64,000 bases of DNA from Castellaniella sp. MT123 (lineage in GTDB: Bacteria; Pseudomonadota; Gammaproteobacteria; Burkholderiales; Burkholderiaceae_B), in NCBI RefSeq assembly GCF_039614765.1, contig NZ_CP154879.1, positions 1,612,001 to 1,676,000 on the forward strand. Reading direction: 5' to 3'. Below are positions 28,295 to 45,367 of the stretch, one piece after another. Under the pieces are notes generated by a model, which searched no databases, had not been told where the DNA came from, and was given only the letters and a program-made list of their open reading frames with translations. Each line of letters starts with the position of its first letter. The first letter of the stretch is position 1. The position numbers and the translations under genes are program-made.

Positions 28295-29500
28295 ATGCGA
28301 AGCCCGCCGATCGAGTCCTCAACGATCACGCTTGCTGCCACACTGACCATCCAGTCCCTGGCGTCGATGTCGCTGCTGACGCTGCCGGCCATTGCCCCCC
28401 TCATTTCCGACCTGCTCGGTATCCCGACGGCCTATGTCGGCACCTACGTCGCCATCGCCTACGTAGGCGCGATCATCACCAGTCTGCTGGCGGGGTCCAC
28501 AATACGCCGCTTCGGTGCCATCCGCGCCAGCCAGGCCGGCCTGCTCACGTGCGCACTGGGTCTGGCGCTGTGCACCGTCGAATCGATCCCGGCGATGGCG
28601 GCCGGTGCGCTGCTGGTTGGCCTGGGCTATGGTCCTATCACCCCTGCCAGTTCTCATCTGCTTGCCCGGACCACACCCGCCCACCGCATGTCATTCGTCT
28701 TCTCCATCAAACAGACTGGCGTACCGATGGGCGGTGTCCTGGCGGGACTGATCGTGCCCGGCCTGGCCCAATGGATAGGCTGGCGAGAGGCCTTTCTGGC
28801 CGTCGCCGCCGCGAATCTCTGCTGTGCCCTGGCCATCCAGCCGCTGTGCGCCCCCCTGGACGCCGACCGTGACCCAACTTGCAAGCTATCCGCCGGTAAC
28901 GGGCTGATTGGACCACTCCGGCTGGTCTTCAGCCAGCGGAGCCTGGCCGTGCTCGCCGGGGTGTCATTCCTGTTTTCCATTGCCCAGTTGTCCTTGACCT
29001 CGTACCTGGTTGCCTTTCTACACCAGGATCTGAGCCTGGAGCTGGTCGCGGCCGGCTTCATGCTGGCTGCGTCCCAGGCGGCAGGGGTGTGCGGACGTCT
29101 GCTGTGGGGCTACGTGTCTGATCATTACTTGAACGCTGTCCGCACCCTGATGGGCTTGTCGCTGTTGATCGCGCTCTGCGCACTGGCAACGCCCCTGCTG
29201 TCAGTCATCGACTCCAGCCTCACGACCCTGATCGTGCTTTGCCTGTTCGGCGGCTGTGCCATCGGCTGGAATGGCGTGTACCTGGCGGAAGTTGCCCGTC
29301 AGGCGCCGCCTGGGCAAGCCAGCATCGCCACGGGCGGTACCTTGTCCATGACCTTTCTGGGTGTCGTCATCGGTCCGCCCATCTTCGGCTCCATCGCGTC
29401 ATTTTCCGGCAGCTATGGCCTCGCCTACGCCACGCTGATCGTACCCGCCGGCCTCTGTCTGATTCTGCTGTGGCGGAATCGGGACGCGTTTACGCGCTAG
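28295..29500 (+). CDS. Major facilitator superfamily transporter
   Basis: Inner-membrane secondary transporter of 401 residues with about twelve hydrophobic segments. The cytoplasmic loop after helix 2 reads LAGSTIRRFGAIRASQ, and the equivalent loop in the second half is LLWGYVSDHYLNAVRTLMG. Both are MFS-type. It is co-directional and 11 bases downstream of the CitE-like gene, so it likely imports the substrate (or exports a product) of the MmgE/PrpD-CitE pair, plausibly a small carboxylate. Confidence 0.9.
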   Translation: MRSPPIESSTITLAATLTIQSLASMSLLTLPAIAPLISDLLGIPTAYVGTYVAIAYVGAIITSLLAGSTIRRFGAIRASQAGLLTCALGLALCTVESIPAMAAGALLVGLGYGPITPASSHLLARTTPAHRMSFVFSIKQTGVPMGGVLAGLIVPGLAQWIGWREAFLAVAAANLCCALAIQPLCAPLDADRDPTCKLSAGNGLIGPLRLVFSQRSLAVLAGVSFLFSIAQLSLTSYLVAFLHQDLSLELVAAGFMLAASQAAGVCGRLLWGYVSDHYLNAVRTLMGLSLLIALCALATPLLSVIDSSLTTLIVLCLFGGCAIGWNGVYLAEVARQAPPGQASIATGGTLSMTFLGVVIGPPIFGSIASFSGSYGLAYATLIVPAGLCLILLWRNRDAFTR

Positions 29501-29701
29501 GAGTGCGGGAGCGCTGTATTATGCCCTTTACACGGTCTTCGGGTCCTATGCCGCCCCACCCGCTTGCCGCTCGGCGCATTGGGTACTGGACCGCGCCAAT
29601 TACAGGGTAATGACCTCACCCCGAAAAAGTGGTCAACTCAAAATCGAAAAGTCCGGCCCCTTTTTGAATCCGAAACGGAAAACGAAACTTGCACCGGACC
29701 G

Positions 29702-29726
29702 GCATCCGGGGCGCCTTCCCGGATGC
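29702..29726 (+). promoter_or_regulatory. Perfect hairpin in the leader of the flavoprotein-patatin gene
   Basis: GCATCCGGG and CCCGGATGC form a nine-base perfect stem with a seven-base loop, ending 20 bases before the start codon. It has no T tract, so it is not a simple terminator. It may be an operator or an mRNA element. The rest of the 246-base gap after the MFS gene (29501-29746) holds nothing I recognise. Confidence 0.4.
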
Positions 29727-29746
29727 GGCATGACCAGGAACACTGC

Positions 29747-32038
29747 ATGGCAACCCAGCACATCGACTTCCTTCTGATCGGCGGCGGCCTGGCCAGTGCC
29801 CAGGCTGCCCAAACCTTGCGGCAGGAAGGCACCACAGGCTCGATCCTGATCCTCTCGGCCGAACCGAATCTTCCCTACCATCGGCCGTTCCTGTCGAAAG
29901 CTCGCCTGCTGGGCACGGCGGATGAGGCACGCACCCTGGTCCACCCGGAATCGTTCTACCGGGACCAGCGGATCGACGTGGCGCTGGACACCAGGGCCGT
30001 CGCGGTCGATACCGCGGAACAGTGGGTCGAGACATCGGCGGGGTCGCGGATCCACTACGGCAAGCTGCTGATCGCTACCGGAGCCTGCGCCCGGCAATTG
30101 GACGTTCCGGGGGCATCGCTCGGCGGCATCCATGTGCTGAGGACCCAGGCCGACGCCGACGTGATCCGGCAGGCGGCCGCCAAAGCCAGGCGGGTCGTGG
30201 TCGTCGGCGGCAGCTTCCTCGGCATGGAAGTCGCCGTCACGCTGCGCCAGCTCGGGCTGGACGTCGCCGTCATCGAAATCGGAGACCGCATCCTCAGGCG
30301 CCTGGAATCGGCCATGCTCTCGGACTTCCTTCAGCGCCACGTCGAACAGGACAAGGGCATCGCCATCGTGCCCAACGCGTCGGTCGTCGCGTTCCATGGC
30401 CGGGGCAAGGTCAAAGAGGTGGAAATCTCCAGCGGCGCAAAGATCTCCTGCGACCTGGTCGTCGTATGCATCGGCATCGCACCCGCGACACAGTTCCTGA
30501 ACGGGAGCGGGGTCAAGCTCGAAGACGGCTTCGTCGAGGTCGACGACCGGCTGCAGGCCAGCGCCCCGAACGTCTTTGCGGCAGGTGACGTGGCGAGCTT
30601 CCTCGATCCGGTGTTCTCGCGCCGACGGCACGTCGAGCACTGGGACAACGCGATCAAGCAGGGCCAACTCGCCGCACGCAACATGCTGGAGCGCCGGCGG
30701 CGCTACGACACCGTGTCCTACTTCTTCTGCGAGGTCGGCGACTTCGGGTTCAACTTCCTGGGCGATCCCACGGGCACCCACGAGCGCATTGCCCAGGGCT
30801 CGTTGCAGGAACGCGCTTTCTCCCTGCTCTACCTGAGCCAGGACATACTGCACGCCGTCTTCACCCTCGGCCGCACGGCCGACGAGGTGCGTGCCGCCGA
30901 AAGCCTGATCCGCTACCGCACCAGCCTGCGCAAAGACAAGCACCGGCTGAAGGACCCCACCTTCGCTCTGAACACACTGCCGATGCAGAACGTGCTGATT
31001 CTGCAGGGCGGCGGCGCGCTGGGGGCCTTCGAATGCGGCGTGATCAAAGCACTGGAGGAACGCGGCATCTTCCCCGATATCGTCGCCGGCATCTCGATCG
31101 GCGCCTTCAACGGCGCGATCGTCGCCAGCCACCCCGGACACGCGACGGAGGCACTGGAATCGTTCTGGGCAGACATCGAGGTCGCCACCCTGCCCGGCCC
31201 GAACGAGCCGGCACGGCGCGCGGCCACCGCCGCGCGGATCATGAGCTTTGGCGTCGAGAAGTTCTTCCGCCCGCGCTGGATCCCGTCATTCGACGCACCG
31301 TGGGAGCCGCCATGGAGCTGGACCGGCCTCTACGACACCTCGCCCATGCGCCGGCTGCTGGAGCAGTACGTGGACTTCCCGGCGCTCAAAAGCAGCCCGG
31401 TGCGCCTGCTCGTGAGCGCGGTCAACGTGCTGAGCGCGGAACTGGAGACCTTCGACAGCTACGTCGACGACTTCACGCCCGAGCACATCCTGGCCAGCGG
31501 CAGCCTGCCGCCCGGCTTCTCCTGGACCTGGGTGGATGGCAAACCGTACTGGGATGGCGGCGTCGTCAGCAATGCACCGCTGGACTTGGTGATCGACCGC
31601 TGCGGGCCGGACGGCAAGCGCGTCTTTATGGTGGACCTCTTCTCCAACCAGAAGGCGCTGCCGGGCAACATCACCGAAGTCATGGCGCGACGTGACGAGA
31701 TCGTCTATGCCCAGCGTGTGCGCAGCGACCTGCACCTGCGCGAGCAGGCCGACGCCTACCGCGGCCTGATCGCCCACCTGATGCAGGAGATCGAGCCCGC
31801 CCTGCAGGACAAGATCAGGCGCCTGCCGCGCTACATCCAGCTCATGGGCAACGGCATTGGCACGCGGATCACCCGCTTTACGCGTAAGCCGCCTCCCGAG
31901 GAGCTGCCCTCACGCGACTACGACTTTTCCGACGTAGCCATCCGCGGCAACCAGGCGCAGGGCTACGCACTCGCGCAGGCCGTGCTGGCATCGTGCGATC
32001 CGGCTGGGGGAATCGGACCCGCGAGCCCCGCAGGATGA
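29747..32038 (+). CDS. Fusion of an FAD/NAD-dependent oxidoreductase with a patatin-like phospholipase
   Basis: A 763-residue protein of two parts. Residues 1 to about 405 are a pyridine-nucleotide reductase of the AIF/ferredoxin-reductase type. They have a first FAD glycine motif LLIGGGLASAQAA, NAD motif VVVVGGSFLGMEVA, and FAD-closing motif NVFAAGDVASF. Residues about 415-763 are a patatin domain with oxyanion loop GGGALGAFECG (near 420), nucleophile Ser450 in GISIG, and Asp603 in DGG, so the Ser-Asp dyad is intact. No signal peptide or membrane span is visible. AGGA is seven bases before the ATG at 29747. The linker shows no stop or frameshift, so it is a genuine single frame. The role is unknown; redox-controlled lipid hydrolysis is a guess. 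Confidence 0.88.
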   Translation: MATQHIDFLLIGGGLASAQAAQTLRQEGTTGSILILSAEPNLPYHRPFLSKARLLGTADEARTLVHPESFYRDQRIDVALDTRAVAVDTAEQWVETSAGSRIHYGKLLIATGACARQLDVPGASLGGIHVLRTQADADVIRQAAAKARRVVVVGGSFLGMEVAVTLRQLGLDVAVIEIGDRILRRLESAMLSDFLQRHVEQDKGIAIVPNASVVAFHGRGKVKEVEISSGAKISCDLVVVCIGIAPATQFLNGSGVKLEDGFVEVDDRLQASAPNVFAAGDVASFLDPVFSRRRHVEHWDNAIKQGQLAARNMLERRRRYDTVSYFFCEVGDFGFNFLGDPTGTHERIAQGSLQERAFSLLYLSQDILHAVFTLGRTADEVRAAESLIRYRTSLRKDKHRLKDPTFALNTLPMQNVLILQGGGALGAFECGVIKALEERGIFPDIVAGISIGAFNGAIVASHPGHATEALESFWADIEVATLPGPNEPARRAATAARIMSFGVEKFFRPRWIPSFDAPWEPPWSWTGLYDTSPMRRLLEQYVDFPALKSSPVRLLVSAVNVLSAELETFDSYVDDFTPEHILASGSLPPGFSWTWVDGKPYWDGGVVSNAPLDLVIDRCGPDGKRVFMVDLFSNQKALPGNITEVMARRDEIVYAQRVRSDLHLREQADAYRGLIAHLMQEIEPALQDKIRRLPRYIQLMGNGIGTRITRFTRKPPPEELPSRDYDFSDVAIRGNQAQGYALAQAVLASCDPAGGIGPASPAG

Positions 32039-32120: not shown

Positions 32121-32441
32121 TCACAGGCCAAAATCGTCTCTGAATCGGTCAATCTGGTGCATCCGCGTGTGCAAGATCGTCACGATACCGATGTCGTTGC
32201 TCGATAGCCGGCGCCAGTAGACAAAGTGTTGTTCGTAGCGAAAGAAATAGCCGTCAATACCGAACTCGGCGGGGATGGGGCGTGATGGCGTCCGGCGACT
32301 CTCGATCCCGTCGAAAGCCTCGAACAAGCCGGTGATATAGCGGTCGGCCTGTTGCGTTCCCCAATGGTCCCGTGTGTACCGATAGATCTCGTCGAGCCGG
32401 AAAGAGGCTGCCTCCTGAACTCGGATTTGTATCTTCGCCAC
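32121..32441 (-). CDS. ParE/RelE-family toxin
   Basis: Small basic protein of about 106 residues with the ParE/RelE fold pattern: KIQIRVQEAASFRLDEIYRY at the N-terminus, a helical hairpin, and the C-terminal strands GYFFRYEQHFVYWRRL and IVTILHTRMHQIDRF. ParE toxins inhibit DNA gyrase and RelE toxins cleave mRNA; the sequence looks more ParE-like. The GTG at 32441 is the most likely start, four bases after the antitoxin stop. A TTG at 32465 would overlap the antitoxin. It is the downstream gene of a two-gene operon. Confidence 0.85.
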   Translation of the reverse strand: MAKIQIRVQEAASFRLDEIYRYTRDHWGTQQADRYITGLFEAFDGIESRRTPSRPIPAEFGIDGYFFRYEQHFVYWRRLSSNDIGIVTILHTRMHQIDRFRDDFGL

Positions 32442-32445
32442 GCGA

Positions 32446-32706
32446 TCAAGTCCGGTTGCGTGCAATCACGTCGGCCGCTGTTAATGGCAGGTACGAAGAC
32501 TCCGGGGCTGCGTAAGCATGGGTCAGTTCCGTCTTCAACCGGTCGAATGCTTCCCGCTCGATACGCTCCTTGTCCCGGCGGATCAGGTCGCGTATGTACT
32601 CGCTGACGTTTTCGTAGGCACCGTGCTCTCCCACGTTGGCGGCAACGAAGTCGCTGAGGGTGCTGCTGAGACGGACCGTCATGGTCGTGGTGGTTGCTCT
32701 AGACAT
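32446..32706 (-). CDS. ParD-like ribbon-helix-helix antitoxin
   Basis: Antitoxin of 86 residues that should neutralise the adjacent toxin and repress their joint promoter. The N-terminal ribbon-helix-helix reads TTMTVRLSSTLSDFVAANV, followed by YENVSEYIRDLIRRDKER, as in ParD. The C-terminal part is the toxin-binding tail. AGGAA lies six bases before the ATG at 32706. The AT-rich stretch just upstream (32725-32760) is a suitable autoregulated promoter. Confidence 0.87.
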   Translation of the reverse strand: MSRATTTTMTVRLSSTLSDFVAANVGEHGAYENVSEYIRDLIRRDKERIEREAFDRLKTELTHAYAAPESSYLPLTAADVIARNRT

Positions 32707-32786
32707 GGCTTGTTCCTGCTGATGGATGTATTCAATATAATTAAAGTTGAATACATCTGCAAGGCGCAAGAAGGTGCTTGGTTCAA

Positions 32787-32957
32787 CTATTGCCTACCCA
32801 GTGACATGCATTTCTGCGTGGCCTGCCAATAGTAGCGAAAGTGCCACGACTTGCGGCCCTGCGCCGAGATCGCCAAAGACAAGCCGTCCGAATCGCCAAG
32901 CGTGTAAGGGCGGCCGGTGGCTTTTGCCTGCCGTACCGCGAAATCCGTAAGTCCCAT
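32787..32957 (-). pseudogene. N-terminal stub of a tyrosine-recombinase integrase (DUF4102 type)
   Basis: A 56-codon frame starts MGLTDFAVRQAKATGRPYTL and contains GLSLAISAQGRKSWHFRYY, the typical DUF4102 arm-binding domain of P4-type integrases. It ends at a TAG right after MSLGRQ, where functional proteins continue for over 300 residues with the catalytic R-H-R-Y domain. It begins 237 bases from the 3' end of tRNA-Gly and points away from it, the standard position of an integrase gene in a tRNA-targeted element. It is a scar of such an element. Confidence 0.85.
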
Positions 32958-33113
32958 GCATCCATCCAGAACAAAAGGCCTGGATTGAAACATCTATGCG
33001 GATCGACTGCTTGAAAGCCAGTCCATCAGTCCGCGAGTTCGGCTCAAAAATGGACTCAAAAATGGCCTTAAATCGCGTGGCTGTAGGCGGACGCCAGTAG
33101 ACGACTCTGGACG

Positions 33114-33150
33114 AAAAAAAGGCCGAAAAACAAAGTTTCCGGCCTTTTTT
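33114..33150 (-). terminator. Terminator downstream of tRNA-Gly
   Basis: An A-tract, GGCCG, a 14-base loop region, then CGGCC and a T-tract form a strong stem that works on both strands. On the minus strand it lies about 43 bases beyond the tRNA-Gly 3' end and is the likely terminator of that transcript. On the plus strand it would shield the tRNA from transcription coming from the left. Confidence 0.8.
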
Positions 33151-33193
33151 CAATCATCTATGGACGTTGGTGGATGTCCATGGACGAAAATCT

Positions 33194-33269
33194 TGGAGCG
33201 GGAAACGAGTCTCGAACTCGCGACCTCAACCTTGGCAAGGTTGCGCTCTACCAACTGAGCTATTCCCGC
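33194..33269 (-). tRNA. glyT: tRNA-Gly (anticodon GCC)
   Basis: The minus strand folds as a 76-base tRNA with encoded CCA. The acceptor stem is GCGGGAA/TTCCCGC, the D-loop has AGCTCAGTTGGTAGAGC, the anticodon arm is CAACCTTGCCAAGGTTG with GCC, and the T-arm contains GTTCGAGAC. It decodes GGC/GGU. A perfect promoter precedes it. The integrase stub downstream shows that its 3' end has served as an integration site. The symbol is generic; I cannot tell which tRNA-Gly copy this is. Confidence 0.97.
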
Positions 33270-34322: not shown

Positions 34323-34435
34323 CGATACCACTCCTCATGATCGAGGCGCCATCATAATCCGCCTGAATGCTTTTCCCAGACAGGACTTATTTCAGGCACG
34401 GGACATGAGCCGCCAGCCCGTACGCCTCGCCGAGA

Positions 34436-35569
34436 TTACTGCGCGCGCAGCACGATCTGTGCGATCTCCGAGGGCTTGCCCAAACGAATTGCCAGCCCGT
34501 TCCACAGGCCGGCGCAATGACTGACGTACAGGGTCATGGCCCCCACCTGATACAGCCCGGACACGAAACCGCCATTGGCCCATCGAGTCAGCAGATGCGG
34601 TCCCAGGATCTGTCCGCCATGGGTATGGCCGGACAACTGCAATGCCACACCCGACCGTGCATTGGCCACGGCGTTGCCGGGACGATGATCCAGCAAGATG
34701 ACGGGCACGCCCGACGGCACGCCCTGCAAAGCCAGCTCCCGATCCGGCGCCGGCTGGCCGAACGACACCGCTTGCCGATCGGTCAGTCCGGCCACGGCCA
34801 GTGGCGATCCGTCCCGATGGATCAGGACATGGGCGTTTTCCAGCATGGTCAGACCCAGCGCCCGATATGCCTTCATCCAGCTCGCGTAATCCGCGTAGTA
34901 CTCGTGATTGCCCGGGATCGCCAGCACGCCGTCGCGCGCGCGCAGATCCTTCAGCGGCCGGACGTCGTCCGCCCGCGCCTGGGTCGTGCCGTCGGCAAGA
35001 TCCCCTGTGAGCACGATCAGATCCGGATCCAGCTGATTGGTTCGTGCGACCACGGCCGCCAGCCAGGACCCCGGGAGCAGCCTGCTGACATGCGTGTCCG
35101 TCAGTTGCGCGATGCGATACCCGTCGAAGGCGGCAGGCAGCCCCGGGATCGTGACCATCACCGTCTTCACGGGCGGCACCCGGATCGCCTGCCAGACCCC
35201 GATAGCCGACAGCACCAGGGCCAGGCCGCCGATCGACAGCAGCAAGACCTGACCCTGCAGGATCGCCCGGCCGGCGCTTCGCAGCGGCAGCCAGACCAGT
35301 ACACCGATCACGTCGCGCACCAGCAGCAGCAAAGCCAGCAGCAGGACGACACCAAAGGCCCAGGCCAGAACGATCAGGACGGCCTGAGGCAATTCCGGCG
35401 AGGCCAGCGACCCAAAGAAACGGCTGGTGAACTGGTGGTACTGGCTTATCAGCAGCAGGACCACGGCCAGCGCGAGCCGGGTTCCGACCCCCCAGGGCAG
35501 AGGCCAGACAAAACGCCACAGCACATACAGCCAGATGACACCAGTCACGAACGGAAGCACGGTTCCCAT
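34436..35569 (-). CDS. Membrane-anchored metallophosphoesterase
   Basis: A protein of about 377 residues with four to five N-terminal membrane spans (to about residue 140) followed by a calcineurin-like phosphoesterase domain. Metal-binding motifs are LTDTHVSRLL, LTGDLADG, IPGNHEYY and SGHTHGGQ, all intact. It belongs with YkuE/YaeI-type enzymes, which act on membrane lipids such as UDP-diacylglucosamine or other phosphoesters. The start is uncertain: the ATG at 35569 gives a normal membrane N-terminus, while ATG codons further upstream add a polar extension. A 65-base piece of this gene, coding for GGLALVLSAIGVWQAIRVPP, is copied into the neighbouring pseudogene. Confidence 0.88.
   Translation of the reverse strand: MGTVLPFVTGVIWLYVLWRFVWPLPWGVGTRLALAVVLLLISQYHQFTSRFFGSLASPELPQAVLIVLAWAFGVVLLLALLLLVRDVIGVLVWLPLRSAGRAILQGQVLLLSIGGLALVLSAIGVWQAIRVPPVKTVMVTIPGLPAAFDGYRIAQLTDTHVSRLLPGSWLAAVVARTNQLDPDLIVLTGDLADGTTQARADDVRPLKDLRARDGVLAIPGNHEYYADYASWMKAYRALGLTMLENAHVLIHRDGSPLAVAGLTDRQAVSFGQPAPDRELALQGVPSGVPVILLDHRPGNAVANARSGVALQLSGHTHGGQILGPHLLTRWANGGFVSGLYQVGAMTLYVSHCAGLWNGLAIRLGKPSEIAQIVLRAQ
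35167..35231 (-). repeat. 65-bp inverted repeat, source copy inside the metallophosphoesterase gene
   Basis: These 65 bases, read on the minus strand, match 36308-36372 on the plus strand without a mismatch. Here the sequence is in frame within an intact gene, so this is the original copy. Confidence 0.93.
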
Positions 35570-35766
35570 AATGAAGCCCGAATCGATACCCGACCATGTT
35601 ACCAAGCCATCGAACACAGGCGCCCGCACCGTGTCCCACCCGCTGGGTCTCCGGCGGACCGCCCGCATGAACCCCGGATGAACACCCACTTCACAAACGG
35701 TTCACGCAGCCCGGAACATACTGCCCTCCATCGCCGATCGAGATCGACCCGGCAGGGAGAAGCACA

Positions 35767-36622
35767 ATGAAGATCCGCCATATCCTGATCACCTTCCTGG
35801 GCATCCTGACCCTGGCCTGGGCCTGGGACGTCTTCGTCCTGAATCCCATGCCCGGCGATGCCATCTGGGTCGCCCGCAAACAGGGCATCTACCTGACCGG
35901 CGTCTGGGCCATGGGCCTGATGTCCCTGACCATGATCCTGGCCACCCGCCCGGTCTGGCTGGAACCCGTCCTGGGCGGCATGGACCGCATCTACCACCTG
36001 CACAAGTGGGCCGGCATCCTGGCGGTCAGCGCGGGAATCACGCACTGGCTGCTGGAACTCGGCGGCGACACCCTGCGCAGCCTGATCGGCCGCGCCGTCA
36101 ACAAGCCTCCCCGTGTGGCCGTGCTGGACATCCTGCAATCCAGCCGCGGACTGGCCGAAGACGTCGGCGAGTGGGCGATCTACGCGCTCATCGCCACTCT
36201 GCTCATCACCCTGTGGAAGGCCTTCCCCTATAAATCCTGGCGGATCCTGCACCGCGTCATGCCTGTCCTGTATCTGGCCCTGGTGTTCCACAGCGTCGCA
36301 CTGACCCCGGCGGCCTGGCCCTGGTGCTGTCGGCTATCGGGGTCTGGCAGGCGATCCGGGTGCCGCCCGTGACCCCTTCATCGCCCGGCTGCGCACCCTG
36401 TGCGCCCCGCTGCCGGGCATCACCCTGCACGTGCACGACGCCAGCGCCGGGCAACGCCTGGACGCCGAGATCCTGCGACGGGAAAGCGGGGTTCAGGTCG
36501 GGGAAGCCATGGACGTCTGGTTCTGCGGCCCGGCCGGCCTGGCCCGGCAGCTGGAATCGGGCCTGCAGTCCCTGGGACTGAAGGACGTGCCAGTGCATCG
36601 GGAAGCGTTCGAAATGCGATAA
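35767..36622 (+). pseudogene. Ferric reductase-like flavohaem protein gene, centre lost and replaced by 65 bp of the neighbouring gene
   Basis: The first 180 codons encode a ferric-reductase-like membrane domain (MKIRHILITFLGILTLAWAW, haem-ligand context IYHLHKWAGILAVSAGITHW and LHRVMPVLYLALVFHSVALT). The last 83 codons, in a different frame from 36371 on, encode the C-terminus of the NAD-binding domain (MDVWFCGPAGLARQLESGLQ). The FAD-binding FR domain and most of the NAD domain, some 180-200 residues, are missing. In their place is a 65-bp inverted copy of the adjacent metallophosphoesterase gene, which also shifts the frame to a TGA at 36370. The product would be a membrane stub without redox domains. 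A sequencing or assembly error is the main alternative. Confidence 0.88.
36308..36372 (+). repeat. 65-bp inverted repeat, inserted copy in the ferric-reductase pseudogene
   Basis: Exact reverse-complement copy of 35167-35231, sitting precisely where the ferric-reductase coding sequence loses its central domains. It joins codons for the membrane domain to codons for the extreme C-terminus. Confidence 0.93.
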
Positions 36623-36639
36623 AAAATTTATCGTATAAT
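36617..36639 (+). promoter_or_regulatory. tRNA-Cys promoter -10 element with an upstream palindrome
   Basis: TATAAT at 36634-36639 is a perfect -10 box about 40 bases before tRNA-Cys. Directly before it, filling the usual spacer, is the palindrome CGATAAA-AAA-TTTATCG (36617-36633). No good -35 hexamer is visible at 17 bases. The palindrome overlaps the stop codon of the ferric-reductase pseudogene. Confidence 0.6.
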
Positions 36640-36678
36640 GCTGGACTTGGCCGGGTGATTCCGGCCATTGACATCACA

Positions 36679-36752
36679 GGCGCAATGACAGAGTGGTTAT
36701 GTAGCGGACTGCAAATCCGTCAACGTCGGTTCGATTCCGGCTTGCGCCTCCA
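36679..36752 (+). tRNA. cysT: tRNA-Cys (anticodon GCA)
   Basis: A 74-base cloverleaf with encoded CCA. The acceptor stem is GGCGCAA/TTGCGCC, the D-arm region is GACAGAGTGGTTATGTAGC, the anticodon arm contains GACTGCAAATC with GCA, and the T-arm contains GGTTCGATTCC. It decodes UGC/UGU. Confidence 0.97.
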
Positions 36753-36762
36753 GATTGGAAAA

Positions 36763-36777
36763 GGGCCTCAGAGGCCC
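36763..36777 (+). terminator. Short GC hairpin between tRNA-Cys and alkB
   Basis: GGGCCTC-A-GAGGCCC is a perfect seven-base inverted repeat ending two bases before the predicted alkB ATG. It could end the tRNA-Cys transcript, though it has no T tract, and it would occupy the place of an alkB ribosome-binding site. Confidence 0.4.
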
Positions 36778-36779
36778 CG

Positions 36780-37430
36780 ATGACCACGCTCGATCTGTTT
36801 GACGATGCGATGCCTGGCGAACGCCAGCGCATGGGCACGAATGCCCTCGTACTGCGCGGTTTTGCACTGCCCTGCGTGGATGCGCTGCTGTGTGCCATCG
36901 ACGACATCGATACGCGTTCCCCTTTTCGCCATATGCTCACGCCAGGGGGCCTGACCATGTCGGTGGCCCTGACCAATTGTGGCACGCTCGGCTGGACGAG
37001 CGACCGGCACGGCTACCGCTACAGCCGGGTCGACCCCGGACACGGCCAGCCCTGGCCAGCCATGCCTGCCGTGTTCAGCCAACTGGCGCGCGAGGCAGCC
37101 GCAGCCGCCGGGTTCTCAGGTTTCGAACCGGATGCCTGCCTGATCAACCGCTATCTAACCGGCTCACGGCTGTCGCTGCACCAGGACAAGAACGAACGCG
37201 ACTTCAGTGCGCCGGTCGTTTCCGTCTCGCTGGGCATGAGCGCCGTGTTTCTCTTTGGCGGACTGGCGCGCACGGACAAGGCCTTCCGGGTGCCGCTGCA
37301 TCATGGGGACGTCGCCGTCTGGGGCGGCAAAGACCGCTTGCGATACCACGGCATCCTGCCGCTGGCAGGCCCGCCGCATGAACGGCTGGGCAGCCGGCGC
37401 ATCAACGTCACGTTTCGCAAGGCCGGATAA
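36780..37430 (+). CDS. alkB: AlkB-type 2-oxoglutarate/Fe(II)-dependent DNA dealkylase
   Basis: Repairs 1-methyladenine and 3-methylcytosine by oxidative demethylation. It has 216 residues, equal to E. coli AlkB. The substrate and fold region TMSVALTNCGTLGWTSD, the iron ligands in SLHQDKNERD (H-x-D) and RYHGILPL (distal His), and the 2-oxoglutarate-binding RRINVTFR are all present. The start is uncertain: the ATG at 36780 follows a hairpin with no ribosome-binding site, and ATG codons at 36810 or 36831 are possible. It may be translated from a leaderless or alternative start. Confidence 0.92.
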   Translation: MTTLDLFDDAMPGERQRMGTNALVLRGFALPCVDALLCAIDDIDTRSPFRHMLTPGGLTMSVALTNCGTLGWTSDRHGYRYSRVDPGHGQPWPAMPAVFSQLAREAAAAAGFSGFEPDACLINRYLTGSRLSLHQDKNERDFSAPVVSVSLGMSAVFLFGGLARTDKAFRVPLHHGDVAVWGGKDRLRYHGILPLAGPPHERLGSRRINVTFRKAG

Positions 37431-37445
37431 CCACGCCGGCCAATG

Positions 37446-38915
37446 TCAGGCCGGCATCGCCGCCAGCGTCTGCGCCACCGACGCCGTCAATCGCTTGGCG
37501 TAAGCAATGTGCAGGAATTCGTTGGGACCATGGGCATTGGATTGGGGCCCCAGCACCCCGCACACCATGAACTGCGCATCGGGAAACCCCTGCAGCAGCA
37601 GATTCATCAGCGGGATGGTGCCCCCTTGCCCGATATAGCCGCAGGCTGCGCCGAAATACTGCCGCGATGCGGCGTCCAGGGCTGCCAGCAGCCAAGGAGC
37701 GGATCGGGGCGCGTTCCAGCCGCTGGCTACCCCGGGATCCGGCTGGAACAGCACGCGGGCCTGATAAGGAGCGTCCTGTTCCAGCAGCGATTTCAGCGCC
37801 TGAGCCGCCGTCGCGCCGTCCACCAGAGGCGGAAGCCGCAGAGACAGCTTGAAGGCTGTGCGTGGCCGCAGGACGTTGCCGGCGCTGGCCAGGGGCGGCA
37901 ACCCCTCGGCCCCGGTGACTGACAAGGCCGGCCGCCAGGTACGGTTCAGCAAGACCTGCTGAGGATCGCGCACCATCGGCAGGACGAAGCCGCCATCCTG
38001 ACCGCAGGCCCAGGGAAAACGCTTCCAGACTTCGTCGCCCAGGGCGTGTGCTGCTTCGCGTACCTGCTCGAGGCGCTCCGCCGGCACGTCGCAATGAAAG
38101 ATGTCCGGCAGCACGCGCCCCGAGCCGCTGTCCTCCAGACGGTCCAGCAGATGACGCAGAATCCGGAAACTGGACGGCACCACGCCGCTGGAGTCCCCGG
38201 AATGCACGCCCTCGTCCAGAACCTGGACTTCCAACGTGCCCGTGACCAGCCCGCGCAGCGAATTCGTCATCCAGAGCTGATCGTAATTGCCCGCCCCCGA
38301 ATCCAGACACACCACCAGCGCCACGCGCCCCAGGCGATCCCGCAAGGCATCGACATAGGGCAGCAGGTCATAGCTGCCGGATTCTTCGCAGGTCTCGATC
38401 AGCCCCACGCAGCGCGGGCGCGGCACGCCCTGGCGGTCCAGCGCCTCGATGGCCGTCAGGGACGCATACACGGCATAGCCGTCATCGGCGCCCCCTCGGC
38501 CATAGAGCTTGCCATCCTGGATCACCGGTTGCCAGGGACCAAGGCCCGCGCGCCAGCCGGAAAACTCGGGCTGCTTGTCCAGATGGCCGTACATCAGCAC
38601 GGCATCGCCGCCATCGGCCCGGGTGGCCGGCGCCTCGAAAAACAGCACCGGTGTGCGGCCCGGCAGGCGCAGGATCTCGACCTTCAGTCCAGCCACCGGG
38701 CGGGATTCCAGCCACTGCGCCGCATCGCGCACCACCTGATCGATATGGCCGTGTTGCACCCAGTCGGAATCGAACGCCGGACTTTTAGCCGGGATCGCGA
38801 TGTATCGTTCCAGGGCGGGGATGATTTCCCGGTCCCACTGATCCTCGACGAAACCCCACAAGGCATGGGGATCAGGACTGACGGACGGGGTTTCATCGGT
38901 CAACGGCACATTCAC
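37446..38915 (-). CDS. M20-family dipeptidase/peptidase
   Basis: Zinc peptidase of 489 residues related to carnosinase-type dipeptidases. Metal-site segments are VLMYGHLDKQPE (His, with Asp after it), GRGGADDGYAVYAS, LIETCEESGS (Glu-Glu) and, near the end, GVLGPQSNAHGPNEFLHI with the last His. A lid domain lies between. The GTG at 38915 has GAGGAG five bases upstream, and upstream codons do not resemble the family. It converges on alkB. Substrate specificity is unknown. Confidence 0.92.
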   Translation of the reverse strand: MNVPLTDETPSVSPDPHALWGFVEDQWDREIIPALERYIAIPAKSPAFDSDWVQHGHIDQVVRDAAQWLESRPVAGLKVEILRLPGRTPVLFFEAPATRADGGDAVLMYGHLDKQPEFSGWRAGLGPWQPVIQDGKLYGRGGADDGYAVYASLTAIEALDRQGVPRPRCVGLIETCEESGSYDLLPYVDALRDRLGRVALVVCLDSGAGNYDQLWMTNSLRGLVTGTLEVQVLDEGVHSGDSSGVVPSSFRILRHLLDRLEDSGSGRVLPDIFHCDVPAERLEQVREAAHALGDEVWKRFPWACGQDGGFVLPMVRDPQQVLLNRTWRPALSVTGAEGLPPLASAGNVLRPRTAFKLSLRLPPLVDGATAAQALKSLLEQDAPYQARVLFQPDPGVASGWNAPRSAPWLLAALDAASRQYFGAACGYIGQGGTIPLMNLLLQGFPDAQFMVCGVLGPQSNAHGPNEFLHIAYAKRLTASVAQTLAAMPA

Positions 38916-39020
38916 GGCAACTCCTCGATCGGTTTCACGAGTCGATTCTACTGCTGGGGATGCGGCCCGACCGTTTTCATGCCATCCTTGCGGAACAACC
39001 CCTTGACCGGAGGACATCCC

Positions 39021-39248
39021 ATGGCAGACACCTGGCTCACCACACTCATCACCGCGACGCCTCAGGAAGGCTTCGAGCTGGCCATCAAGCTGGCCCGCAT
39101 GGGCGTCAAATACACGCAACCCTCCGCCGAGGTTCGCGACAAGCTGCGGCCCATCTACGGCGAGGATGCCAACGCGCTGATCGCCTCGTCCCAGGTGGTC
39201 GCGACCAATTTCCAGACCATCGCTGCCGCCAACAGCTACTGGAAGTAA
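39021..39248 (+). CDS. Small conserved protein of unknown function
   Basis: A 75-residue protein with an excellent ribosome-binding site (CCGGAGG) seven bases before the ATG. It starts MADTWLTTLITATPQEGFEL and is mostly helical and soluble, with no membrane span or known motif that I recognise. Its TAA overlaps the ATG of the next gene, so the two are coupled. Good translation signals and the coupling make it a real gene, but no function can be given. Confidence 0.75.
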   Translation: MADTWLTTLITATPQEGFELAIKLARMGVKYTQPSAEVRDKLRPIYGEDANALIASSQVVATNFQTIAAANSYWK

Positions 39249-39853
39249 TGGACGATCAGGTTCTGGCGGCCATGGCCCGCTGGCCCAACGTGCCGGCGGT
39301 GCATGGCTGGCTGTCGCTGTCGGCGCGCGGGCAATGGCGCCTGCATCCCCACGGGCAAGGCTGGGGGGCCGCCCCCGAGGAGCCCGGCGAAGCCATCACC
39401 AACCCACAAATTCTGGCTTTCATCGGCCGCAATTATCTGCCCGACGGCGACGGTCGCTGGTTCTTCCAGAACGGCCCGCAGCGTGTCTACGTGCGCCTGG
39501 ATGGCGCCCCGTGGATCCTGCGTACTGAACCGGATACCGACGGGCGGTCGCACCTGCTGACCCACACCGATCAACCCTACGGTCCGGTCACGCACTGGTG
39601 GCTGGATGCGGAAGGCCGCCTGTATACCCAATCCGCTTGCGGCGCCGGCCTAGTGACGGACCGGGATCTGGCCCAGATGGTCGACATGCTGCGCACGCCG
39701 GACGGTCAACCGCTGAGCGCCTGGCTCGAGCAGGCCGATCTGGCGAAAGCCGGCACCATCACGCATCTGACCGGCGGCACCACCAGAGCCCCCTTCAGCC
39801 TGCTGGGCACCGATGCGGTTGAAGCCACACTCGGATTCATCCGCAGGCCGTGA
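39248..39853 (+). CDS. Conserved protein of unknown function, DUF2946-like
   Basis: A 201-residue soluble protein starting MDDQVLAAMARWPNVPAVHG and containing GRNYLPDGDGRWFFQNGPQR and YVRLDGAPWILRTEPDTDGR. The W-F-F-Q-N-G-P-Q-R-V-Y-V segment is characteristic of a small Burkholderiales family annotated only as a domain of unknown function; the exact DUF number is from memory and may be wrong. It is translationally coupled to the 75-residue gene before it and converges on aspA. Confidence 0.8.
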   Translation: MDDQVLAAMARWPNVPAVHGWLSLSARGQWRLHPHGQGWGAAPEEPGEAITNPQILAFIGRNYLPDGDGRWFFQNGPQRVYVRLDGAPWILRTEPDTDGRSHLLTHTDQPYGPVTHWWLDAEGRLYTQSACGAGLVTDRDLAQMVDMLRTPDGQPLSAWLEQADLAKAGTITHLTGGTTRAPFSLLGTDAVEATLGFIRRP

Positions 39854-39871
39854 ACGGCCCCAAACAGTACC

Positions 39872-41287
39872 CTACTGAAATCGAACCGAATACGTAAGTG
39901 TCCGCAGATCCAGTGCCCGCTCGATCGTCTCATGGGACAAGTCCGGCTGCTGTGCGAGCACCTCCTTCAAGGTCTTACCCGAAACCAGCGCCTCCTTGGC
40001 GAGTACGGCAGCGCGTCCATACCCGATGACCGGGGTCAACGCCGTTGCCCCCGCCATGCTAGATTCCAAATGCCCCTTGCAGACCTGAATATTGGCGGAG
40101 ATGCCGGAAACGCACTTGGAGCTGAGCGTGGAAATCGCACTCGTGAGTAATCGCATCGACTGGAGAATATTGAACACGATGACAGGTTCCATTGCATTGA
40201 GCTGCAACTGCCCACTCTCCGCCGCAAGGGTCACGGTAAGATCATTGCCGATCACCTGGAATGCCACCTGATTCACCACCTCGGGGATCACAGGATTGAC
40301 CTTACCCGGCATGATCGACGAGCCGGCCTGCATCGGCGGCAGATCAATCTCACCTAATCCGCCCCTCGGACCGCTGGACAGCAGCCGCAAGTCATTGCAG
40401 ATCTTGGATAGCCTCACGGCAAACCGCTTCAACGCGCCGGATACCGTGACGAATGCGTCCGTATCCCAGCATGCCTCAACAAGATTATCGGCCGGTACGA
40501 AAGATATCCCGGTCACCTTGCGCAGTTCTTCAATAACCGCCTCTTGATAGTCTCTTGTGGCATTGATACCCGTCCCGATCGCGGTGCCGCCCAAGCAGAC
40601 CTTGAAACAGGCGGACGCGACATCGCCTAGAGACAAGACGCTTTCCCGGATAGCCACCGAAAAAGCCATGAATTCCTGGCCCAGTGTCATCGGCACAGCA
40701 TCCTGCAGCTGCGTTCGACCCAGCTTGATCACGTCGGCAAACCGCTCCGACCTTTCTTCAAACGCATCGGCGAGTTCCGCCATCGCGCGCGTGAGTTGCG
40801 GTACAGTCAACAAAATTGCCAGGCGTATCGCGGTCGGATACACATCATTGGTCGACTGCGACAGGTTGACATCGTTGTTCGGATGAAGCCGGTCATACTG
40901 TCCACGGGGTAGCCCCATGATCTCCAGACCGCGGTTCGCAATCACCTCATTGATGTTCATATTGGCCGAAGTGCCCGCGCCGCCCTGATAGACATCGATC
41001 GGAAATTCGCTCAGATGCTGGCCCGACAGGATCTCCCAGCACACCTTGTCGATGGCCGCAGCCTTGTTCTGATCCAGAATGCCCAGACGGGCATTCGCAC
41101 GAGCGGCTGCCAGTTTCACATAGGCCAGGGCCTGAAGGAAGGCTGGAAACTGATTGATCTGGACATCGGATATCTGGAAATTCAAGACTGCTCGGGTCGT
41201 CTCGGCCCCATAGTATGCGCCCGCCGGAATGGCGACCACCCCCATCGAACTATCCTCGAGACGATCCTCCGCGGAAGGATTCTGCAT
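39872..41287 (-). CDS. aspA: Aspartate ammonia-lyase (aspartase)
   Basis: Converts L-aspartate to fumarate and ammonia; cytoplasmic homotetramer of the fumarase/aspartase superfamily. It has 471 residues, the normal size. Superfamily regions are visible: region 1 GGAGTSANMNINEVIANRG, region 2 KLGRTQLQDAVPMTLGQEF, and the mobile loop signature AGSSIMPGKVNPV. NNDVNLSQSTNDVYPTAIR is typical of aspartase. The ATG at 41287 is favoured because AGGA is five bases upstream; 41320 is possible. It is the last gene of an operon with an amino-acid ABC transporter and receives aspartate from asparaginase. Confidence 0.94.
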   Translation of the reverse strand: MQNPSAEDRLEDSSMGVVAIPAGAYYGAETTRAVLNFQISDVQINQFPAFLQALAYVKLAAARANARLGILDQNKAAAIDKVCWEILSGQHLSEFPIDVYQGGAGTSANMNINEVIANRGLEIMGLPRGQYDRLHPNNDVNLSQSTNDVYPTAIRLAILLTVPQLTRAMAELADAFEERSERFADVIKLGRTQLQDAVPMTLGQEFMAFSVAIRESVLSLGDVASACFKVCLGGTAIGTGINATRDYQEAVIEELRKVTGISFVPADNLVEACWDTDAFVTVSGALKRFAVRLSKICNDLRLLSSGPRGGLGEIDLPPMQAGSSIMPGKVNPVIPEVVNQVAFQVIGNDLTVTLAAESGQLQLNAMEPVIVFNILQSMRLLTSAISTLSSKCVSGISANIQVCKGHLESSMAGATALTPVIGYGRAAVLAKEALVSGKTLKEVLAQQPDLSHETIERALDLRTLTYSVRFQ

Positions 41288-41328
41288 GACGTTCCTGGTG
41301 GATACTGGTTCTGAGGCCATCGCTGGTC

Positions 41329-42057
41329 TCAATGATTGAGGATCTTGGACAGGAAGCATTTCGCGCGTTCGGAGGAGTTTCCCGAAAAAAAATCTGTGGA
41401 TGGTGTGTCGTCGATGATTTCACCGCTTTCCATGAAGATCACACGATCGGATACCTTCCTCGCAAACCCCATTTCGTGGGTGACGACCATCATCGTCATA
41501 CCCTCTTGCGCCAGCTCCGTCATGACTTCCAGCACCTCGCTGATCATTTCCGGATCGAGAGCCGATGTCGGTTCATCAAACAACATGATGTGCGGGTCCA
41601 TGCACAAGGACCGCGCAATCGCTACCCGCTGCTTTTGCCCGCCGGACAATTCCGACGGGTATTTGTCGGCGTGATCCGACAGGCCCACACGCTTGAGCAA
41701 CGCATAACCTTTGTCTTCTGCTTCCCGCTTCGATCGCCTCAATACCTTGGTTTGAGCAATCGTCAGATTCCTGATGATGCTCAGGTGCGGGAAAAGCTCG
41801 AAATGTTGAAACACCATGCCCACGCGGGAGCGCAGCTTCGCCAGATCCGTCCTGGGATTCTTGATCGATACCCCTTCGACACGTATATCACCTTCCTGGA
41901 TCGTTTCCAGACCGTTGACTGTCTTGATGAAGGTTGACTTCCCGGATCCGGAAGGCCCGCACACCACGACAATGTCACCCTTGTTGATTTTCGCAGAACA
42001 GTTCTTGAGGGCATGGTAATCACCATACCACTTGTTGATTCCGGCAATCTCGATCAT
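41329..42057 (-). CDS. Polar amino-acid ABC transporter ATPase, GlnQ-like
   Basis: Cytoplasmic ATPase of 242 residues for a polar amino-acid importer. Walker A is [13 protein letters not shown], the Q-loop is [11 protein letters not shown], the signature is [15 protein letters not shown], Walker B is [13 protein letters not shown], and the His switch is VVTHEMGFA. The ATG at 42057 has GGAG six bases upstream; ATGs at 42069 and 42075 are alternatives. It lies in one operon with its binding protein and two permeases but, unusually, after the ureohydrolase gene. Confidence 0.94.
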
Positions 42058-42144
42058 TGATGTCTCCATACCCATCTTCCTGAAAAGCAGATGGAAAATT
42101 GCTTCTGGCCAAAGGTCTTTCGTCAGCCGAAAGCCTTGCTCATG

Positions 42145-43107
42145 TTATTTATGATCAAAATACCCGGCTCGAATCGTCGAGCCGATCAGGTTGACGATGA
42201 ACCTGCCCGCAGTAACGCACGTCAGCTGGCAGGCCAAGTCCTTTCCCGGCTGGATTTCGACGATGTCCATCCCAACCACACGACCTTTCTTCACAAGGCC
42301 ATGAATGAGCTGACGCGCCTGAACATAGGTCACACCGCCGGGTGCGGGCCCCGCGACCGCGGGCATGATGCTCGGGTCGATACCGTCCGCGTCGATACTC
42401 AGGTAGTAGTTACCACCATCCGGGATACGATCCAGAATGGCCTTCATGCCGACCTCGTGCAGTTCGTAGGCACTCACGATCTGCGCCCCATAGGCTTTGG
42501 CCGCCTCGTACTCTTCGGTCCGTGCGCTGCCCTGTGCTCTCAGGCCAATCTGCACGATGTCCTTCACATGCGCCATCTCGGAGGCCCGGCGAATCGGGCT
42601 CGACAGACCTTCCTTGATCCCGTCGACCTCATCACGCCAATCCAGATGCGCATCGACATGCACCAGCGTAATGGGCGCCAGGCTGTCGAATGCCCGCAGG
42701 ATCGGCGTCGTGATTCCGTGGTCCCCTCCCAGGACGATTGGCAGCGCCCCGGCTTTTAGAATCTGACGCACCGCCAACTCCGCCTTGCGATAATGGTCGC
42801 CTGGCTTGCCAAGGTCGGGCAGCACGTCTCCGCAGTCGACGAACCGAATGTCTTCGCGTCCCTGAAGCAAGGGTCCGTCAATATCAAAATCGTAATGATC
42901 GGGTTCACGAACGATGCGGTCACTGATGTCACGCATCGTCTGCGGCGTATGGCTTTGATCATTAGTGAATGATCGGGGGCTGTAAGCTGCGCCAAATGGC
43001 ATACCCAGTATGGCAATGTCGGCCTCAAGGTTTTCCAGGTCGCGAGCAGGCTCGGAATACAGGAGCGTCTTGTGCGCGGCACGAGGGGGTACGGTCAGTT
43101 GTTCCAT
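42145..43107 (-). CDS. Ureohydrolase (agmatinase/guanidino-acid hydrolase family)
   Basis: Manganese enzyme of 320 residues that hydrolyses a guanidino group to urea. Metal-binding motifs are GGDHG, VHVDAHLDWR and SIDADGIDPSI, with the conserved Glu in DIVEIQPGKD. All ligands are intact. The length and order fit agmatinase or guanidinobutyrase/guanidinopropionase rather than arginase; specificity cannot be decided by eye. Because it is embedded in an amino-acid ABC operon, the transporter may import a guanidino compound or arginine derivative as well as acidic amino acids. Confidence 0.9.
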   Translation of the reverse strand: MEQLTVPPRAAHKTLLYSEPARDLENLEADIAILGMPFGAAYSPRSFTNDQSHTPQTMRDISDRIVREPDHYDFDIDGPLLQGREDIRFVDCGDVLPDLGKPGDHYRKAELAVRQILKAGALPIVLGGDHGITTPILRAFDSLAPITLVHVDAHLDWRDEVDGIKEGLSSPIRRASEMAHVKDIVQIGLRAQGSARTEEYEAAKAYGAQIVSAYELHEVGMKAILDRIPDGGNYYLSIDADGIDPSIMPAVAGPAPGGVTYVQARQLIHGLVKKGRVVGMDIVEIQPGKDLACQLTCVTAGRFIVNLIGSTIRAGYFDHK

Positions 43108-43160
43108 GGTGGTTCCTCGGGATTAATCCGTTCAATGGTCAAGTTCAGTTGATTGGGTAT

Positions 43161-43823
43161 TCATTTCATGCTCCATTTCTCGACATGGCGCTCAAGATGA
43201 TTACCGGTGACGTCGAGCACGAGACTGCAGAGCCAATACAGGAGCGCAGCCATGCCGAACACCTCGACATAAGCAAAAGTGGTGGATGACAGGAGATTGC
43301 TCTGGTAGGTCAATTCTTTCAGCGCCACCACCGAGAGAATGGATGTTTCCTTGAACATCATGATCACCAGGCTGGTGGTGGGCGGCAATAAAAATGACAG
43401 CAATTGCGGAATGACGATGTGCCACTGCACCGCCAGCGGACGCATCCCAAGCGAGACGGAAGCTTGCGTCTGTCCCTTCGGAACGCTGTGCAGGGCGGCC
43501 CGCATCACTTCACAAAAGTACCCCCCGGTATAAAACGCTACCGTGATCAGCCCAACGTGAAGATCCGACATCACGACGCCGATCTTTGGCAAGCCGAAAT
43601 AGGACAGGTACACGATAATCAGAAATGGGATGTTCCTGACGACCTCCACATACGACTTGGAAAAAAGCCTGAGAAACGAAACCCGGCTTTCAGCCGCATA
43701 GGCCAGCAGCGCGCCGATGAAAATCCCCGTGGGTATCCCGATCACGCTGACCAGGGCCGTGATTTTCAAGCCGCTGAGCAGAATCGGCAGCGATTCGCGA
43801 ATGGCATCGAGATCAACGAGCAT
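43161..43823 (-). CDS. Polar amino-acid ABC transporter permease 2
   Basis: Inner-membrane permease of the His/Glu/Gln/Arg family, 220 residues, with five predicted spans. The EAA-like loop reads ALHSVPKGQTQASVSLGM, and VRNIPFLIIVYLSYFGLP is the typical third-helix region. The ATG at 43823 is used; the longer frame upstream overlaps permease 1 extensively. The 11-base overlap with permease 1 shows coupling. Confidence 0.92.
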   Translation of the reverse strand: MLVDLDAIRESLPILLSGLKITALVSVIGIPTGIFIGALLAYAAESRVSFLRLFSKSYVEVVRNIPFLIIVYLSYFGLPKIGVVMSDLHVGLITVAFYTGGYFCEVMRAALHSVPKGQTQASVSLGMRPLAVQWHIVIPQLLSFLLPPTTSLVIMMFKETSILSVVALKELTYQSNLLSSTTFAYVEVFGMAALLYWLCSLVLDVTGNHLERHVEKWSMK

Positions 43824-44493
43824 TTGGCAACACCCTTGCAATCCGTCGCTCCACCAGACGCGAAATGGAAGATGCACAAAAGAGAATGATGAAATACACG
43901 GCAGCTGTCGCAATGAATACCTGCAAAGGAAGGTTGCTTTGCAAGTTCGCATCCCGTGCCAACGCGGACAACTCAGCCACTGAAATGATCGACAGCAAAG
44001 ACGATGCTTTCAGCAGGATCGTGAACTCGTTGGTCAGCGGTGGAAGCGACCGGTGGAAAACCTGGGGCAACAGGATGTACAGCCAGGTCACCCCTTGCTT
44101 CATCCCCAGGGCGCTGGCGGCGGCACCTTGCCCACGTGGAATCGTGGTCAGAGCTCCACGCAGGATCTCGCTGATGTAAGCCGCCGTGTTGCATGACATG
44201 GCCAAGATGCCGGCCTCAATCGGGCTGAGCTCCAGGCCCAGCACCGAAGGAATCACGTAATACGCAATCAGCAGCTGGATCAGCAAAGGAGTGCCCCGCA
44301 TGACGCTGACGTACAGCCGCGCCAGCATCCTGACGGGGGTCGCGGCCTTGACCCGCGCAAGCAGCAAGAGGGTGCCTAGGAGCAATCCGATGCAGAACGC
44401 CACGACACTCGCGAGAATCGTCGCCCCGGATGCCCGCAGGACCCCTGTGTAAAACGGATCGAGCGCCCCATGGACTGTCAGAAGGTCGATCAT
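43813..44493 (-). CDS. Polar amino-acid ABC transporter permease 1
   Basis: Inner-membrane permease of 226 residues. RGTPLLIQLLIAYYVIP is the family-typical segment after the second span, and the EAA loop is ALTTIPRGQGAAASALGMKQ. It forms a heterodimer with the permease encoded next and works with the ATPase at 41329-42057. It follows the binding-protein gene after 25 bases. Confidence 0.93.
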   Translation of the reverse strand: MIDLLTVHGALDPFYTGVLRASGATILASVVAFCIGLLLGTLLLLARVKAATPVRMLARLYVSVMRGTPLLIQLLIAYYVIPSVLGLELSPIEAGILAMSCNTAAYISEILRGALTTIPRGQGAAASALGMKQGVTWLYILLPQVFHRSLPPLTNEFTILLKASSLLSIISVAELSALARDANLQSNLPLQVFIATAAVYFIILFCASSISRLVERRIARVLPNAR

Positions 44494-44518
44494 CGAACGA
44501 CTCCTTCAGAAGAAAGGG

Positions 44519-45367
44519 CTAAAGAGCACCTGCAGGCAGGTAATCTTTGGTCGGCAGATCCATAGTCTGGCCAAACCATTTCTCCTGCAGCTTGGCAAGA
44601 GTGCCGTTGGCTCGCATCTCGTTCAGCGTGTCATTAATGAACGCGCGAATCTCCGGATCCTTAGGGTTGGTCACCCAGGCCAGCAAGCGGCGCTCACCCA
44701 CCTCGCCCACGATACGGTAGGCATCCGGCTTTTGCTTCATTTCAAGCGTCAACACATTTGAGGGCAGGACGCCCACGTCGATCGTCCCGTTCAGCAAGGC
44801 CACGGAGACGTCTGGATAGGACTGAAAAAGCTTCAGATCCGCGTAACCTTTTTTCCCTTCCTTCTTCAGCTCCTTGTTGTAGTCCTCGATGGCAGGCTGG
44901 GCCAGGGACCCCATTTGCGTTCCGACGATCTTGCCGACGATATCGCTGTCATTCTTGATGGCGCCATTGTCTTTTTTGACGACCAGTACGGAGCGCACCT
45001 CACCGACAGGCTCGGTGAATGCCACTTTTGCGGCACGTGCCTTCGTGATGCCGACGCTAGTCGCCACAAAGTCGAATTTTCTGGCCAAGACTCCGGGTAA
45101 AAGGCCTTGAAACGGCTGGTTGAGCTGGTTCAACTTGACACCTAGCTTCTTCACCATATAGTCAAGGATATCCTTGCCGTAACCGACGATCTTGTCGTTT
45201 TGGACAAACTCGTAGGGTTCATAAGCCGCCTCGGTACCAACCGTCAGCTGGCCGCGGGCCTTGATATCGGCAATCGTTCCTCCTGCTGCCGCATACGCGA
45301 CTCCACAGGAAAACACGCTCGCCGCGAGTGCAAGCCCGGTCAGGGCCTTTTTGCCGAAGGCATTCAT
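44519..45367 (-). CDS. Polar amino-acid ABC transporter periplasmic binding protein
   Basis: Family 3 solute-binding protein of 282 residues. The signal peptide has core LTGLALAASVFSCGVAYA and an A-A-A cleavage region. The mature part begins around GTIADIKARGQLTVGTEAAY and includes RKFDFVATSVGITKARAAKV. The ATG at 45367 has AAGGA seven bases upstream. It is the first gene of the operon and lies opposite the LysR gene. Ligand unknown: the operon context points to acidic amino acids or a guanidino compound. Confidence 0.92.
   Translation of the reverse strand: MNAFGKKALTGLALAASVFSCGVAYAAAGGTIADIKARGQLTVGTEAAYEPYEFVQNDKIVGYGKDILDYMVKKLGVKLNQLNQPFQGLLPGVLARKFDFVATSVGITKARAAKVAFTEPVGEVRSVLVVKKDNGAIKNDSDIVGKIVGTQMGSLAQPAIEDYNKELKKEGKKGYADLKLFQSYPDVSVALLNGTIDVGVLPSNVLTLEMKQKPDAYRIVGEVGERRLLAWVTNPKDPEIRAFINDTLNEMRANGTLAKLQEKWFGQTMDLPTKDYLPAGAL

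Follow-up and report, generated by a model that had tools for sequence, protein, structure and literature searches.

A ferric-reductase-like gene of Castellaniella sp. MT123 interrupted by an exact inverted copy of its neighbour, probably through replication template switching

In a stretch of 64,000 nucleotides from Castellaniella sp. MT123 (contig NZ_CP154879.1, positions 1,612,001 to 1,676,000; hereafter the window), a ferric-reductase-like gene was found to stop matching its intact relatives at the point where a 65-bp sequence of the neighbouring metallophosphoesterase gene is present in inverted orientation. This raises the question of whether the junction is a real mutation and, if so, by what process part of one gene came to be replaced by a short reversed piece of the next.

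String comparison of positions 36308-36372 (plus strand) with positions 35167-35231 showed identity at 65 of 65 bases as reverse complement, with 1076 nt between the two 65-nt arms; the perfect copy from about 1.1 kb away that the earlier note had reported at the gap is therefore exact. An exact inverted match of a 65-mer is expected by chance in 64 kb at approximately 1e-30 (arithmetic, equal base use). Within 464,000 bases of the genome, which consists of one contig of 3.37 Mb (sampled as the window and twenty evenly spaced stretches of 20 kb), this was the sole exact inverted pair whose arms were 20 bp or longer and lay 50 to approximately 5000 bp apart. A whole-genome search with positions 34400-36700 as the query returned, besides the query itself, only two reciprocal 65-bp matches. 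The same scan for inverted pairs, applied to 487,975 bases of the loci of 80 relatives, gave two positives, namely the same event in the sister strain (L060) and one 22-bp pair (L081). Exact direct repeats within the same limits of size and spacing were identified in six of the 21 stretches of the genome sample. Among the six blocks listed for one locus (L155 6588-9068; G000:C1:2190588-2193068), exact direct repeats of up to 96 bp lie approximately 1.9 kb apart, and these probably represent a duplicated gene.

The donor segment (35167-35231, minus strand) was located by repeat pairing and Pfam inside the metallophosphoesterase gene (34436-35689, minus strand, start codon not settled), whose frame is open and which matched PF00149, the donor thus being intact in its own place as a template switch would leave it. 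This gene and the reductase gene stand head to head in the window, and they are head-to-head neighbours in C. caeni (G004, L061) also, whereas in C. defragrans (G001, L062), the second of the relatives used to examine the anatomy of the junction, another ORF intervenes between them. A segment homologous to the donor was found by DNA search in six of eight other genomes of the genus, with the gene around it present in the same six.

What is left of the reductase gene at its 5' side is an ORF of 201 amino acids (35767-36372, plus strand), comprising approximately 184 native residues and approximately 17 derived from the inverted copy. PF01794 (Ferric_reduct) was matched at residues 44-173 over the full profile (1-121), the membrane domain thus being complete, in agreement with the earlier note. 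The ORF ends at a TGA codon within the junction (36370-36372), and alignment to the relatives placed the last 82-83 codons of the gene directly behind it (36373-36622, plus strand), out of frame with the ORF, the change in length at the junction not being divisible by three. The 83 codons that were said to have been kept are thus retained as DNA, but not as part of the reading frame. Pfam identified only PF01794 in the truncated ORF and no family in the 3' remnant, with neither a FAD nor a NAD domain recovered; membrane, FAD and NAD domains do not occur in one frame in this gene, while all three do so in the proteins of C. caeni (441 amino acids) and C. defragrans (442 amino acids). In coordinates of the C. 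caeni protein the loss extends from about residue 185 to about residue 355, so that the FAD match (245-307) lies wholly inside it, while the NAD match (321-419) has 35 of its 99 residues deleted as DNA. The earlier note had the gene lacking its FAD domain and most of its NAD domain; this holds for all of the former, but only about a third of the NAD match was deleted, the rest being out of frame, and it is only from the translated product that the whole NAD domain is missing.

Given the frameshift and the immediate stop, what remains is very probably a pseudogene that the cell tolerates. Near position 2,490,441 the same genome has another reductase-like gene of full length (42% identical, 444 amino acids from its ATG), with PF01794 above the Pfam cut-off and the FAD and NAD matches just below it. 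Retention of the truncated ORF as a functional short membrane protein was also considered. The only difference between the two strains inside this ORF alters residue 77, which is H in the strain of the window and R in 79 of the 80 relatives, sister strain included (78 found by pattern matching and L133 by eye), with H also present in L094; this change hints at relaxed constraint, a single change deciding nothing.

Comparison with the locus of close relatives, which the earlier note had proposed, showed the gene to be intact in both C. caeni and C. defragrans, the window being without 513 nt (relative to C. caeni) and 519 nt (relative to C. defragrans) between the points of leaving and rejoining. 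The upstream part of the gene is 82% and 80% identical to that of these relatives, and a tRNA-Cys gene (36679-36752, plus strand), found with the same sequence after the reductase gene in both, anchors the synteny. Among named relatives (the best 80 of 220), the frame stays open for 380 codons or more, counted from the start of the match, in 76. The four below this length were the same-species MAG (201), L097 (292, cut by a contig end), L111 (148, with an in-frame stop) and L129 (376, where the match begins at residue 18). In the case of L111, a MAG of Candidatus Accumulibacter, one in-frame stop follows 148 codons of the matched stretch and the remaining frame is open, representing either a different disruption of the reductase family or a sequencing error. 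A membrane-domain match (E 0.001 or better) was absent from four of ten genomes of the genus, two of which are less than 95% complete, and the reductase gene is not universal in the genus.

The junction itself was found again in a second assembly of the same species (G061, 89% complete; taken to be the MAG of Castellaniella sp. isolate DR_1_1.49, contig JAHRWZ010000016.1, length 124,721), which has an identical truncated ORF, an identical junction and both 65-bp copies. The window and this assembly differ at 87 of 18,001 aligned bases without gaps, and both 65-bp copies and the 3' remnant are free of differences. The junction is thus a real, inherited mutation. Its age was described in the earlier note as very recent, which is acceptable in a loose sense. 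The event is younger than the split from C. caeni, in which the gene is intact, and predates the split of the two strains, which differ at eight of 10,662 sites in the adjoining stretch (35642-46303), unless recombination passed it between them. The absence of mismatches in 65 bp places divergence between the two copies below approximately 4.6% (rule of three, arithmetic). Long decay of the 3' remnant is not indicated, since 63 of its 81 residues are identical in C. defragrans, a similarity on a par with that of the intact C. caeni gene (54 of 82).

Two clusters of strain differences were observed in the same comparison. Positions 28303-31353 hold 57 of the 87 differences, which suggests that a segment was exchanged by recombination, one border of it lying near 31.35 kb. 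Within the metallophosphoesterase gene, positions 35447-35641 hold 17 differences (14 of them in 35447-35510) that cause seven amino-acid changes, and this cluster is probably an imported homologous tract unrelated to the junction. A second template switch at 35447-35510 was considered and rejected: a search of eight genomes with the sister-strain version of this segment recovered the homologous gene in four of them (G061, G000, G004 and G005), all other matches being short and weaker (the best with E 7e-4 over 31 bases), with no copy found that could have templated it.

The edges of the inverted copy were then compared by eye with the relatives. At the left joint (36308-36318, plus strand), C. 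caeni agrees with the window at ten of 11 positions, nine of them contiguous, and at no position do both C. caeni and C. defragrans differ from it. The right joint (36362-36372, plus strand) contains the TGA codon; here C. caeni agrees at ten of 11 positions, eight of them contiguous, and C. defragrans at eight of 11; the T at 36370 has no match in either relative, so the right-hand match may be 8 nt long or may carry one mismatch. Between the joints lie 43 nt (36319-36361, plus strand) with no counterpart in the reductase gene of the relatives. The 65-bp block, which had been read as a 65-bp insertion, is an exact copy over its whole length, but probably consists of only 43 nt of new inverted DNA flanked on each side by up to 11 nt of microhomology already shared by the two genes; the 11-nt figures derive from relatives, the pre-event reductase sequence of this species being that of an unobserved ancestor. 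With the C. caeni reductase gene as a stand-in for the lost sequence against the inverted donor gene of the window, random pairs of breakpoints gave runs of at least 9 nt in 5.6e-5 and of at least 8 nt in 3.45e-4 of 2,000,000 trials, a rarity that counts in favour of microhomology-primed switching. Against it, the gene pair shares 62 exact words of at least 8 nt in inverted orientation, so that matches of such size exist at many places in it, and three of these words, of 10-11 nt, were not used. A conserved hot spot was rejected as an explanation: by eye, the matching stretches are not shared by the gene pairs of C. caeni or C. defragrans themselves, which argues against a conserved predisposing repeat.

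The earlier note had considered a replication template switch or a fold-back repair event combining a deletion with a short inverted insertion. Such a deletion with a short inverted templated insertion is what was found, and the template switch is the better of the two mechanisms, strengthened by the putative microhomology at both joints. The junction was probably produced in a single replication (or replication-restart) event by two microhomology-primed template switches, with the metallophosphoesterase gene as inverted template. While paused within the reductase gene, the growing strand would have annealed by its 3' end, through up to approximately 11 nt of microhomology, to metallophosphoesterase sequence of opposite sense 1.1 kb away. 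After approximately 43 nt had been copied from this inverted template, the strand would have returned to the reductase gene at a point further along, pairing there by another match (up to approximately 11 nt) and skipping approximately 513-519 nt. If the other strand was the one growing, the same steps would have taken place in reversed order. Either a leading strand may have jumped to exposed lagging template ahead of it, or the end of a lagging strand to sequence already behind it. The short, perfect inverted copy would thereby have replaced the whole FAD domain and some of the NAD domain, shifting the frame and bringing the ORF to an end at once. The insert is, as such a switch predicts, the exact reverse complement of nearby sequence, and a donor within 1.2 kb favours a local switch, as a random donor in a 3.37-Mb genome would fall within that distance approximately 0.07% of the time (arithmetic). 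Against it count the distance of 1.1 kb, which exceeds the classic hairpin range, and the fact that one event and two successive events would leave the same product.

With dnaA at 2.506 Mb, a single dif-like site (three mismatches) at 0.851 Mb and the locus at 1.648 Mb, together with negative GC skew in 29 of 31 4-kb windows, the fork at this locus most likely runs towards lower coordinates. An effect of the replication terminus or of fork fusion was rejected, the locus being mid-arm by the positions of dnaA and the dif-like site. Insertion of a mobile element was rejected also. The junction consists of reductase and inverted neighbour sequence only, with no transposon, as had been noted before, and in the window no exact direct repeat was found in a scan that covered copies of at least 20 bp with 50-5000 bp between them.

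The foremost alternative to template switching is that a single-stranded fragment of metallophosphoesterase DNA was captured and annealed by both ends at a fork, replacing the stretch between them, for which the short-patch double illegitimate recombination described for Acinetobacter is a model. A patch of tens of bases between two microhomologies, with loss of the stretch replaced, is the product expected of this process, and the junction resembles short-patch double illegitimate recombination in Acinetobacter baylyi in this respect. A ComEC-type competence protein is encoded by the genome, which adds little, as ten of 14 control genomes, E. coli included, also gave a match. Donors in A. baylyi are not known to be limited to a neighbouring gene. 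Against capture, an adjacent donor would here be a coincidence of approximately 0.07% (arithmetic) unless single strands were made locally. The loss of 513-519 nt is also large relative to the patch, and fragment capture is considered unlikely.

Less probable again, and rated a poor prospect, is alternative end joining with a templated insertion after a double-strand break within the reductase gene. The broken end, once resected, would have folded back or reached into the adjacent gene by error, copied a short stretch and then been linked to the other end by way of microhomology. A deletion with filler and microhomology fits this reading, and foldback templated inverted insertions at breaks in yeast, mostly of approximately 5-34 bp, are described in the portion of PMC11724301 consulted. 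No match to PF02735 (Ku) was found in the genome (G000), B. subtilis being the only match among 14 controls, and this counts against Ku-dependent end joining, though alternative end joining needs no Ku. Priming accounts better for microhomology of such length at the two joints. That two or more separate mutations were involved, the reductase gene first undergoing a simple deletion and then, at the scar, an inverted insertion, or the reverse, would be compatible with the end product and with two strains identical at the junction. It is highly improbable, however, as both edges of the loss are also both edges of the copy, with a match at each, and independent events would have had to meet exactly. 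An assembly artefact, which the earlier note had left as an alternative and by which chimeric reads can yield perfect inverted copies, is very unlikely, to the point of being negligible, because assemblies of two different strains, distinguished by the differences given above, have one and the same junction.

In E. coli, imperfect inverted repeats are an established site of template switching (PMC7202029, in part). As in quasipalindrome mutation described there, inverted neighbouring sequence would here have been used as a template and then left, and the resulting repeat is perfect. Quasipalindromes are imperfect repeats that form hairpins, whereas the present case has two short putative matches, separated by over 1 kb of loop, together with a loss of approximately 513-519 nt. 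Quasipalindrome mutation in a hairpin was accordingly rejected, close imperfect arms being absent. For short-range template switches in great apes, the consulted part of PMC7954356 gives a median copied length of 12 nt with a maximum of 128, and 29.5% of these switches shorten the sequence. The template switching proposed here follows the four-point model of that work, in which the strand leaves at point 1, copies from 2 to 3 in reverse and returns at 4, with one fork assumed, but the host, the distance of the donor and the size of the loss differ, as does the copied length from the median of 12 nt. Junctions of lac amplification in E. coli were described with microhomologies of 2-15 bp, some inverted repeats and complex structures (PMC2621351, in part). 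The microhomology at the joints and the inverted piece are in line with FoSTeS / MMBIR, proposed earlier for that amplification in the same source; the contiguous matches to C. caeni are 9 and 8 nt at the two joints, or putatively up to 11 nt at each in this species, the T at 36370 having no match in the relatives. FoSTeS / MMBIR events are duplications and amplifications, unlike the half-kilobase loss with a 43-nt inverted filler found here. The term short-patch recombination does not occur in the portions of PMC8116780 and PMC5312590 consulted. A literature search limited to titles and the openings of abstracts found no bacterial case of exactly such form, and absence from print is not claimed.

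The mutation is thus of a known kind, its reach being unusual and its junction clean. Donor and acceptor are known, as are the two joints, and a sister strain as well as intact relatives are available for comparison, so that the locus preserves a complex replication error in a bacterium as a clean natural fossil. It suggests that a gene can be destroyed outright by a single event of this type and that the result can be inherited. Ordinary annotation would show just a short ferric-reductase-like protein. The broader proposition, that a wild bacterium inherited a strand jump of kilobase range with two switches whose only cues were two inverted matches of 8-11 nt, is doubtful and is put forward tentatively. 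If it is true, bacteria may lose genes by an overlooked route, that of long-reach inverted templated indels, which differs from quasipalindrome mutation in hairpins. The pattern, a deletion with an exact inverted copy of neighbouring sequence and microhomology at both joints, could be counted across bacterial genomes.

At lower coordinates than the metallophosphoesterase gene, a tRNA-Gly gene (33194-33269, minus strand) was identified by tRNA calling, and Pfam identified an N-terminal fragment of integrase type (Arm-DNA-bind_3, 32787-32993) and a ParE-like toxin gene (32121-32465). The ORF beside the latter (32446-32769) matched no Pfam family and may encode an antitoxin. Judged by this gene content, the region 32121-33269 looks like the remains of an integrated element.
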